In this document: one piece after another, positions 2,279 to 38,327 of the stretch | Numbering within the stretch: the first letter of the stretch is position 1 | Layout: the number at the start of each line of letters is the position of its first letter | Source of the DNA: Methanoculleus methanifontis | GTDB lineage: Archaea > Halobacteriota > Methanomicrobia > Methanomicrobiales > Methanoculleaceae | Direction: 5' to 3' | Assembly (NCBI RefSeq): GCF_030464365.1 | Contig: NZ_VCYI01000001.1 | Span: forward strand, 62,001-126,000 | DNA length: 64,000 bases | Position numbers and translations under genes: made by a program | The notes under the pieces: generated by a model | Database searches by the model: none | Told to the model about the DNA's origin: nothing | The model's input: only the letters and a program-made list of their open reading frames with translations

Positions 2279-2447
2279 ATGGCCTCACGCGAAGAACGCG
2301 AAGCCGCGAAGGGGAGTTGCTCTCGGATAACCGATCTTCGCGTTCTTCGCACCTGCGGTGCTCAAGCTCCGGGCGTTCCGCCCATCGCTCTTCGCGGCTC
2401 GCACCTGGCGGTGCTCAAGCTCGCTACGCTCGCACTTCGCGTGAGTC
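2279..2447. repeat. CGCGAAG hairpin repeat, tandem unit 2 (longer form)
   Basis: The first 72 bp match unit 1, 107 bp upstream. The right part adds further small palindromes (GCACCTGCGGTGC-like, CTCGCTACGCTCG) before closing with ACTTCGCGTGAG, the complement of the left end. The same modules recur at 13811-13901 and 24040-24222. Confidence 0.8.
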
Positions 2448-13683: not shown

Positions 13684-13976
13684 GGTTTTGTTGAAACCCT
13701 CTCCCGGAGGATGAATTATCTCCGGATAATCCATGTCTCACCGACGCACGCGAAGGCGCGAAGAACGCGAAGTCTGGATGGGTATTGACTGTCTCCCTTC
13801 GCGGCTTCGCGGCTCGAAGCCTACGGCTTCTCACGCTCCCGTCCTGTGGACAGTCGCGGCTCGCACCTACGGTGCTCAAGCTCGCTGCGCTCGCACTTCG
13901 CGTGAGACCCACATCACCCGCCTCTATCGGCAACCGAGTGTTATCCAGGGGTTGTGGAAAGCATTTCAACAGGGCC
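13684..13976. mobile_element. MITE-like element copy A (293 bp), IS6-like ends
   Basis: The ends are GGTTTTGTTGAAA on the left and, on the complementary strand, GGCCCTGTTGAAA on the right, 10 of 13 bases identical. An exact 8-bp direct repeat CTTTTTTG flanks it (13676-13683 and 13977-13984). The inside is an imperfect palindrome with a CGCGAAG hairpin and no gene. Compared with copy B (37971-38172) it carries 91 extra bases at 13811-13901. Terminal sequence and 8-bp duplication resemble IS6-family ends; no transposase is present. Confidence 0.78.
13811..13901. repeat. 91-bp palindromic cassette inside MITE copy A
   Basis: Absent from the otherwise collinear copy B, and bounded by a repeated CTTCGC. 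Its first 66 bases (13811-13876) are the exact reverse complement of 24138-24203. It holds GAAGCCTACGGCTTC and GCACCTACGGTGC hairpins. Confidence 0.8.
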
Positions 13977-18674: not shown

Positions 18675-18748
18675 TGCCCCCGCCCGGATTTGAACCGGGG
18701 ACAACCAGATCTTCAGTCTGGCGCTCTCCCAGTCTGAGCTACAGGGGC
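18675..18748 (-). tRNA. tRNA-Phe (GAA)
   Basis: A 74-nt cloverleaf on the minus strand. The acceptor is GCCCCTG paired with CGGGGGC, the D-arm region TAGCTCAGACTGGGAGAGC, the anticodon loop ACTGAAGAT with GAA, and the T-arm CCGGGTTCAAATCCGGG type. CCA is not encoded. A TATA-like GTATTTATTAAG lies about 30 bp upstream of the 5' end (18775-18787). Confidence 0.97.
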
Positions 18749-23891: not shown

Positions 23892-23966
23892 CGGGCCTGG
23901 AGGGATTCGAACCCTCGGCATCCGGGTTAGAAGCCCGGCGCTATGTCCTGGCTAAGCCACAGACCC
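23892..23966 (-). tRNA. tRNA-Arg (TCT)
   Basis: A 75-nt cloverleaf on the minus strand. Acceptor GGGTCTG pairs with CAGGCCC; the anticodon stem-loop is CCGGGCTTCTAACCCGG with anticodon TCT; the T-arm is GAGGGTTCGAATCCCTC. CCA is not encoded. A palindrome GGGTTATTAACCC (23998-24010) about 35 bp upstream may contain the TATA box. Confidence 0.96.
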
Positions 23967-24309
23967 CTGTGGTATTCCTATACATTTTGGTCGCATGGGG
24001 TTATTAACCCTTTGAGGAAGGCGCCCATGCTCCGGCCCTTCGCACTTCGCGGCTTCGCGCACTTCGCGTGAGGTCATATTGTTATCTGTACCCGCTAACT
24101 CACGCGAAGAACGACGCTTCGTCAGAAGCGGAGTTGGAGCACCGTAGGTGCGAGCCGCGACTGTCCACAGGACGGGAGCGTGAGAAGCCGTAGGCTTCGA
24201 GCCGCGAAGGACGCGAAGTCTGGTGTCCGGGTGCTGCCAGTGTCTCTTCACATCTCCGGTGCTCCTGATCCGTTCCTTGTCGGAACGTCGCACGAAAAAA
24301 GAGAGCGCA
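23967..24309. other. 343-bp spacer between tRNA-Arg and DUF473 gene, filled by repeats
   Basis: It holds the tRNA promoter and a CGCGAAG/palindrome repeat block. No gene is seen. The right end (24250-24295) resembles the left part of the repeat at 25987 (GGTGCTCC...GTTCCT...GTCGGAAC). Confidence 0.6.
24040..24222. repeat. Composite CGCGAAG/palindrome repeat
   Basis: Blocks of CTTCGCGCACTTCGCGTGAG, then TCACGCGAAGAACG, then a 66-bp stretch (24138-24203) that is the exact reverse complement of 13811-13876, and finally GCCGCGAAGGACGCGAAG. It contains GAAGCCGTAGGCTTC and GCACCGTAGGTGC hairpins. Confidence 0.8.
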
Positions 24310-25804: not shown

Positions 25805-26155
25805 CCGGATTCTTCTCTCCGGCAGGGCATCTCTTTTTGCGGACTTTAACTCCGCATATTTCATGCTGATTTTTGGTGCAGAAAGGCGAGGTGCTCCCGG
25901 CGTTTCAATCGTTGCCCGGTATTGGTCATCTTTCGCTTTTGCTTCAGTTAATTGGATGAACCTGTACACGGCTTCCCACCGGATATCGCACCTTTGGTGC
26001 TCCAACTCCGTTCCTGTCGGAACATCGCTTATCGCCACGCGGGAGTGATCGGGGAGGTGCGACCGGAGGGAGCTTGAGAAGACCGAAGGTCTTCGAACGG
26101 GTGTCCCCCTCCTGGCAGAGGCATGTTGGGATGACCTAAAAAAAGAGTGAGCGCC
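25805..26155. other. 351-bp spacer downstream of the DUF5611-like gene
   Basis: The right 170 bp are the repeat at 25969-26137. The left part (25805-25968) is AT-richer, with no clear gene or RNA structure. Confidence 0.5.
25969..26137. repeat. TGGGATGACC-type repeat, copy 1
   Basis: Similar to 37693-37861. The 82 bases from TATCGCCACGCGGGAG through CGGGTGTCCCCCTCC are identical in both copies. It contains the perfect hairpin GAAGACC-GAA-GGTCTTC and GCACCTTTGGTGC. It ends in GTTGGGATGACC like copy 2, but no matching left terminal repeat is visible. Confidence 0.78.
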
Positions 26156-37588: not shown

Positions 37589-37862
37589 GAAGTCGTCCCA
37601 AAAATACCACGGGATTGAAGATTCACAGGGTTCTGAATGTAATTACGAGCGTTCATACCGAATTGAATGATCTCCTGTATCAAATTGCTGAAACGGCTTC
37701 CCGTTGGTTATCGCACCTCCGGTGCTCCTGCTCCGGTTCTACGAACCATCGCATATCGCCACGCGGGAGTGATCGGGGAGGTGCGACCGGAGGGAGCTTG
37801 AGAAGACCGAAGGTCTTCGAACGGGTGTCCCCCTCCCGGCAGAGGCGTTTTGGGATGACCTC
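37589..37862. mobile_element. Second MITE-like element (274 bp) with 17-bp inverted ends
   Basis: Left end GAAGTCGTCCCAAAAAT and complementary-strand right end GAGGTCATCCCAAAACG agree at 13 of 17 positions. Its right 170 bp resemble the repeat at 25969-26137. No open reading frame of interest and no obvious flanking duplication are seen. Confidence 0.55.
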
Positions 37863-37970
37863 CATATTTCCTTTTCCCATTAAACTCCTCCGTGCGATGA
37901 AAGAAATACGTTGCTATTTAACTCTTGGCCCTGACGTGAGAAAGTGAGGCGGGAGAGGCAATCATAAAAC

Positions 37971-38172
37971 GGCTTTGTTAAACCCCTCTCCCGGAGGATG
38001 AATTATCTCCGGATAATCCATGTCTCACCGACGCACGCGAAGGCGCGAAGAACGCGAAGTCTGGATGGGTATTGACTGTCTCCCTTCGCGGCTTCGCGTG
38101 AGACCCACATCACCCGCCTCTATCGGCAACCGAGTGTTATCCAGGGGTTGTGGAAAGCATTTCAACAGGGCC
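37971..38172. mobile_element. MITE-like element copy B (202 bp), IS6-like ends
   Basis: The ends are GGCTTTGTTAAAC and, on the complementary strand, GGCCCTGTTGAAA. The flanking exact 8-bp repeat is CATAAAAC (37963-37970 and 38173-38180). Apart from the missing 91-bp cassette it is almost identical to copy A at 13684-13976. The different duplications show two separate insertion events. Confidence 0.8.
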
Positions 38173-38327
38173 CATAAAACGGTCTGGGAACTTCTTTGAC
38201 AGGAGGGTGGATGCGATGCTTGGAAGGACTGGCCCTAAGGGGTGGAGTTGAGAGGAATGGGGTTTTGGGTCGCAACTGACAGAACTTCAGGCGATGAAAA
38301 CGCCCGGTACACTGGACCGTGGGGACA

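Follow-up and report, generated by a model that had tools for sequence, protein, structure and literature searches.

The small dispersed repeats (SDRs) of Nostoc, reportedly described by Elhai and colleagues in 2008, are said to be tens of bases long (21-27 nt), to form hairpins with compensatory changes, and to lie embedded in heptamer repeats, in minitransposons and in one another. The double-hairpin elements of Allomyces have variable stems. These mitochondrial elements have no flanking duplication, and an RNA intermediate has been suggested for them (Paquin et al. 2000, cited in PMC2800124). REPINs are described with conserved ends around a variable spacer, and they show compensatory changes (PMC3116915). 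REPs have also been sought in archaea, in a study whose archaeal genome table, as far as shown, is without Methanoculleus (PMC12306157). Our literature searches, within their scope, returned no description of the double-hairpin unit or of the MITE reported here.

We analysed a 64-kb stretch of the Methanoculleus methanifontis genome, hereafter the window (contig 1, 62001-126000; the genome comprises 2.61 Mb in 30 contigs). A 274-bp stretch within it is probably a non-autonomous IS5-type MITE, into which two members of a distinct family of double-hairpin repeats have made their way. Like IS5-family MITEs, the element is short and non-coding, shares its inverted ends with an IS5-family element of the same genome, belongs to a family with a 3-bp duplication, and occurs in many copies. 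It differs from them in having two subfamilies with a common right part of ~80 bp, an interior that is no simple deletion of the IS found, and hairpin units in some copies. The unit itself can be likened to the Nostoc SDRs, as these are described, in its compensated variable stems and its embedding in heptamers, minitransposons and itself, whereas it is archaeal, larger (about 41-46 versus 21-27 nt) and built of two hairpins. The Allomyces elements are likewise small two-hairpin repeats, but mitochondrial and fungal. Judged by these described features, the unit would seem to work like both, and we claim membership in neither. With REPs and REPINs it has in common that it is a short, palindromic, dispersed intergenic repeat with compensatory changes; it differs in its constant linkers and variable stems and in that its own genome has no Y1 transposase. 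The 45-nt and 51-nt satellite families given for Methanoculleus marisnigri in PMC6749651 may be a tandem form of the unit, a comparison made by repeat length alone.

The 274-bp element and its MITE family

The earlier note on this DNA had described a mobile-like element of 274 bp bounded by a 17-bp imperfect inverted repeat. Its span and coordinates hold. The end repeat (left GAAGTCGTCCCAAAAAT; right, as reverse complement, GAGGTCATCCCAAAACG) was counted here as 15 bp, because the first 15 bases match at 13 of 15 positions and the next two mismatch. We also recovered the reported recurrence of the right ~170 bp at 25969-26137 (C1:87968-88137), with 89% identity; the unchanged run in that copy is present and measures 83 bases (37754-37836 = 26030-26112) instead of 82. 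The features concerned are as follows.

37589-37862, no strand: MITE, 274-bp copy (basic element 189 bp), delimited by its ends, the complete-copy alignment and the size classes
37589-37603, plus strand: left terminal inverted repeat GAAGTCGTCCCAAAA, from the sequence and identical ends in other copies
37848-37862, minus strand: right terminal inverted repeat GAGGTCATCCCAAAA, from the sequence, the same ends being found on an IS
25969-26137, plus strand: right-hand fragment of a second MITE copy, 89% identity, units occupying the same two places

The recurrence of the 274-bp stretch is not due to chance. Its own genome contains 60 matches at E ≤ 0.01, many covering the inner hairpin units alone, and GWRGTCRTCCCAAAA occurs 14 times, compared with 0 times for a reversed-pattern control. 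Among its MITE relatives the commonest length is 189 bp; their inverted ends measure 15 bp (GARGTCRTCCCAAAA), and similarity stops there. The earlier note had held that similarity continuing past the ends would speak against an element; when a sister copy was searched together with its flanks, at least 40 matches (a count by eye) were confined to both ends, starting and stopping within 3 bases of them. In an alignment of complete copies the basic element measures 189 bp. Its two subfamilies differ in their left halves and have the right ~80 bp in common. We then considered all end pairs 150-420 bp apart in the collected loci (n = 40), of which 25 are 186-191 bp long, 7 are 227-234 bp and 8 are 258-373 bp; this set includes a probable chance pair in L195 (330 bp, counted in the longest class), an overlapping pair in L344, and the apparently orthologous L405 and L406. 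A pair 1189 bp apart in L118 was taken for a chance pair. The 339-bp pairs of L405 and L406 lie at corresponding places of genomes G026 and G011, exceed the usual size classes and have 3-bp duplications. A 231-bp element in L234 carries a third kind of insert, which is not a hairpin unit.

Insertion of the 189-bp family, with its 15-bp inverted ends, duplicates 3 bp of the target. A perfect duplication of this length flanks 22 of the 40 end pairs and is lacking at 18; in 1000 shuffles it flanked 1.1 pairs on average and never more than 5. No pair among the 40 has a duplication 4 to 6 bp long. The related genome G019 has a 231-bp copy with GAT on either side. Of the 15 genomes examined for its site, 12 (G000, G003, G008, G009, G010, G011, G015, G023, G024, G025, G026 and G027) have the site empty, and both the element and the second GAT are absent there. 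In the remaining three (G004, G030 and G033) the flanks of the site failed to align across the junction. The check for target duplications that had been proposed thus came out positive for copies of the family and negative for the window copy, which has no 3-bp duplication (ATT/CAT). A search for an empty site of the window copy found none, its intergenic flanks aligning to no relative past the upstream gene, and we therefore infer its insertion from its family. For the copy in L242, a search of relatives did not find the two flanks together, and no empty site was found.

Two other kinds of feature were seen in the window. A ~207-bp repeat at 37970-38176, the IS6-like MITE of the earlier note, differs from the 274-bp element; it has a 98% identical copy at C10:17130-17336 and partial copies elsewhere in the genome and the genus. 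Two tRNA genes lie on the minus strand at 18675-18748 and 23892-23966.

A likely IS5-family partner

The search for an IS with matching ends was successful: the same genome holds an IS5-family IS of 844 bp, in four complete copies and six contig-end fragments (ten stretches compared). Its right end is GTATTGGGATGACCTC; its left end, GAGGTGATCCTAT, is more divergent. In G043 and G059, the MITE end GAGGTCATCCCAAAA also bounds elements that carry a transposase gene. The G043 transposase, represented by its C-terminal 176 aa only, matches the NCBIfam IS5-family model NF033580 with 126.6 bits (cut-off 110) and Pfam DDE_Tnp_1 (PF01609). Of 61 genomes, 29 contain relatives of the transposase gene; the own genome accounts for 11 matches. 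One IS copy, on C2, has AGT on both sides and two overlapping reading frames; among IS end pairs 844-845 bp apart (n = 7), a perfect 3-bp duplication is present in three and none in four.

The MITE and this IS have similar ends and the same duplication length, and their interiors are unlike. The 274-bp element contains a single ORF, of 110 aa, which extends beyond its right end and for which we detected no Pfam match and no match to the IS transposase. The features of an IS5-family MITE are thus found here, namely ends shared with an IS, an IS5-family transposase, no transposase gene of its own, and an equal short duplication, the last of which holds for family copies and fails at the window copy. 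The 844-bp IS is the likely mover of the MITE: its transposase would recognise the MITE ends, bind them and move the element in trans, with the 3-bp duplication as the observed trace. From the sequences compared, we regard such mobilisation in trans as probable and no stronger, because the common ends and duplication length are accompanied by unlike interiors and a divergent left end of the IS. The family's target duplications, the empty site and the matching IS support the mobile-like element that the earlier note had proposed.

Double-hairpin units within the MITE

The bounds of the 274-bp element are confirmed, whereas 274 bp is not its basic size. The window copy is longer than 189 bp because it contains two double-hairpin units in opposite orientations. 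Its 85 extra bases are these two ~41-45-bp units, which have constant linkers and variable, covarying stems. The consensus of such units (~41-46 bp) reads TGCGAY-(hairpin b)-GGAGCWTGAG-(hairpin a)-CGAA, in which the linkers are constant and the stems vary and covary. The nested units were defined by their absence from 189-bp copies and by pattern detection on the strand.

37714-37758, minus strand: nested unit 1, 45 bp, with hairpin a (CACC/GGTG), linker and hairpin b (GGTTC/GAACC)
37782-37822, plus strand: nested unit 2, 41 bp, with TGCGAC, a minimal hairpin b, GGAGCTTGAG, hairpin a (AAGACC/GGTCTT) and CGAA

Unit 1 (45 extra bp) is placed after TATCG, and unit 2 (41 extra bp) lies within the 5' arm of a GC-rich terminal hairpin. 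A second repeat family, independent of the MITE and lodged within it, makes up the bulk of the repeated right 170 bp, and the fragment at 25969-26137 carries its units at 25977-26034 (minus strand) and 26044-26105 (plus strand).

The unit places are empty or filled independently among MITE copies. Of the 26 aligned copies, L001 (the window copy) and L003 carry a unit at each place. L237 and L248 have one only at place 1, and L102, L108, L009 and L244 only at place 2. The stems at place 2 also differ: the window copy has AAGACC/GGTCTT, L003 and L244 have CACC/GGTG, and L009 has AAGCC/GGCTT. L003 has an additional unit nested in the loop of a unit hairpin.

Units across the genome and the genus

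Units were also found outside any MITE at three places in the window.

24105-24209, plus strand: two tandem units in CGCGAAG heptamer sequence
13805-13864, minus strand: unit, flanking bases included
2338-2395, minus strand: unit, flanking bases included

The pattern GGAGCWTGAG..CGA has 118 matches in the own genome compared with 19 for the reversed control, a count in which a single linker may be counted repeatedly. Within the genus, 19 of 35 genomes (own included) have the unit pattern at no less than twice its control, and the other 16 do not. All 41 stretches of the named sequence collection with exact matches to one form of the unit are labelled Methanoculleus, Methanomicrobiaceae, Methanomicrobiales or Euryarchaeota. 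The units number dozens in the own genome and in many genomes of the genus, and they occur as 46-bp tandem arrays (as in L044), nested in one another and with recurrent junctions.

We assessed the hairpins at the 73 non-redundant places listed for the own genome. A perfect hairpin comes directly after the linker at 55 of them (113 of 2190 random positions) and before it at 32 (331 of 2190). The random positions come from windows that contain units, so these controls are, if anything, too high. An early count over all loci (a hairpin after 210 of 381 linkers and at 312 of 10320 random positions) is superseded by the former, since its loci had been picked partly by the hairpin pattern. At the places listed, stem a comes in 7 types and stem b in 16, and the 28 units with both stems show 21 stem combinations.

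The junctions of the units recur. Among 165 non-redundant unit arrays, 29 begin directly after CGAAG (random positions, 54 of 23520) and 12 after CGATA (32 of 23520); 17 begin after GCGGGG and 13 after GGGGAG, and a CGCGAAG-type heptamer lies on both sides of 11. We note that some of these loci are mutual copies and the counts are thus not of independent events. Heptamer-like repeats of the CGCGAAG type (TTCGCG..CTTCGCGTGAG) are present at 38030-38102 and 24105-24230, and units are often embedded in such sequence. Another host of the units is a larger, GC-rich palindromic element (ACGGCTTTCCATTGGCTATCGCCACGC...AATGGCGATACC), seen in L151, L152, L154, L155, L157 and L038, which has a TATCGCC core in common with the MITE.

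The first five of these loci represent the gap orthologous to 25805-26155 of the window. Its surroundings are alike in all the genomes compared. In the first hairpin of the palindromic element there, G010 and G032 lack a unit; G003 and G033 have one each, with different stems, and G019 has three tandem units. These differences are compatible also with slippage, recombination or deletion. In a 92-kb comparison of G019 with G033 we found no clean insertion of a single unit, and many indels with unit sequence, mainly changes in tandem copy number. With respect to genes, 38 of 74 units with context lie inside mechanically called ORFs of at least 130 aa, which may be spurious in GC-rich DNA. For 34 other units, both neighbours were called: the flanking genes are in tandem for 13 units of one orientation and 8 of the other, convergent for 12 and divergent for 1.

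Covariation of the stems

We selected fillers of hairpin b by the linkers alone and compared their pairing with that of arms re-dealt 1000 times; the fillers are kin by descent, which the shuffles ignore. In 46 distinct 13-base fillers, 195 of 230 positions pair (re-dealt mean 124.5, sd 5.4, maximum 147), and 21 of the 46 pair throughout (mean 2.0, maximum 8). Among the 12 fillers of 14 bases, 48 of 60 positions are paired (mean 34.1, maximum 46). As a register control, 48 fillers pair at 204 of 240 positions in register and at 34-104 of 240 when slid by 1 to 3 bases. The middle position of hairpin b pairs least, in 26 of 46 fillers. One-base intermediates exist, GGATGgcaCGTCC occurring beside GGATGggaCATCC and GGACGggaCGTCC.

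Alternative explanations and a proposed mechanism

Folding raised the question of whether the 274 bp could be a conserved structured RNA gene and not a transposon, as both strands fold better than shuffled sequences (z -4.0 and -3.2). That stability is due in part to the terminal repeats and to inserts absent from most aligned copies, and there is no Rfam match at the gathering threshold in the window, so this explanation was rejected; we give it hardly any credence. A related explanation assigns the units a function for the host, as structured RNA or transcript ends, with the covariation reflecting selection on the stems. The covariation is indeed strong, and only 1 of the 34 units with both neighbours called lies between divergent genes. 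Their orientation to neighbours is nevertheless not fixed (13 versus 8 in tandem contexts), copy number is very different between species, and Rfam at its gathering threshold has no match for them within the window either, and we consider a host function improbable.

Other explanations concern how the units came to be where they are. They could be repeats of the REP/REPIN kind, with a RAYT (Y1 tyrosine) transposase that recognises GGAG in front of a hairpin as their mover: GGAG precedes hairpin a in every unit, and REPINs also have compensatory changes (PMC3116915). The own genome, however, has 0 matches to Y1_Tnp (PF01797), only 7 of 35 genus genomes match (6 above the cut-off), and unit-rich genomes, among them G011, G026, G028 and G030, have none. 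RAYT is disfavoured as the mover by the missing Y1 genes in the own genome, and we regard it as very improbable. G020 has 19 Y1_Tnp matches on several contigs, many of them fragments, and most genomes of the genus have none. Alternatively, the units could be immobile ancestral intergenic sequence that diverges in place, where slippage and quasi-palindrome (template-switch) repair would pair the stems without selection. The 46-bp tandem arrays (L044), the copy-number differences between G019 and G033 and the one-base intermediates among the fillers all fit such a history, which we nonetheless judge rather unlikely, because units lie within MITEs young enough to have empty sites, different whole stems occupy one place, and dispersed copies number in the dozens.

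The boldest reading, which we hold to be possible but somewhat less likely than not, is that the units are a new archaeal family of double-hairpin mobile elements with cassette-like stems, which lands in MITEs, palindromes and heptamer arrays and has no cognate transposase gene. In our main reading, the units would spread as tiny repeats that enter GC-rich intergenic sites, multiply there and are exchanged between them; candidate sites are heptamer arrays, GCGATA sites, and the hairpins of MITEs and other palindromic elements. The route that we favour would be for units to insert occasionally, or to be exchanged, by means of short words in common (GCGA, the linkers) where single strands are readily exposed; tandem multiplication could then follow. 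Two processes, singly or together, may supply new stems: exchange by way of the common linkers, and template-switch repair in which one arm serves as template for the other. Exchange would explain the changes of whole stems between fixed linkers. Intermediates, for example GGATGgcaCGTCC beside GGATGggaCATCC and GGACGggaCGTCC, would be accounted for by template-switch repair or by selection. No consistent duplication was seen flanking the units, and we know of no enzyme for them. Insertion into hairpin loops as a general rule was rejected: the flank complementarity of 154 unit loci (mean 2.46) is about that of shuffled flanks (2.41, sd 0.08), and loop insertion fits single cases only, namely place 2 of the MITE and the nested unit in L003.

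The MITE is ordinary, one more non-autonomous transposon, and the hairpin unit is the interesting part. If the boldest reading is true, whole hairpins are swapped between copies by way of conserved linkers, the units are among the smallest mobile elements known, and they land in and are carried by MITEs, palindromic elements and heptamer arrays. Cyanobacteria and mitochondria are known to have tiny, poorly understood hairpin repeats, and the units would bring this class to the archaea. Methanoculleus, many of whose genomes have dozens of copies and which includes several closely related sequenced species, is well suited for asking how a 45-base repeat spreads without a transposase, and why its stems change and yet stay paired.
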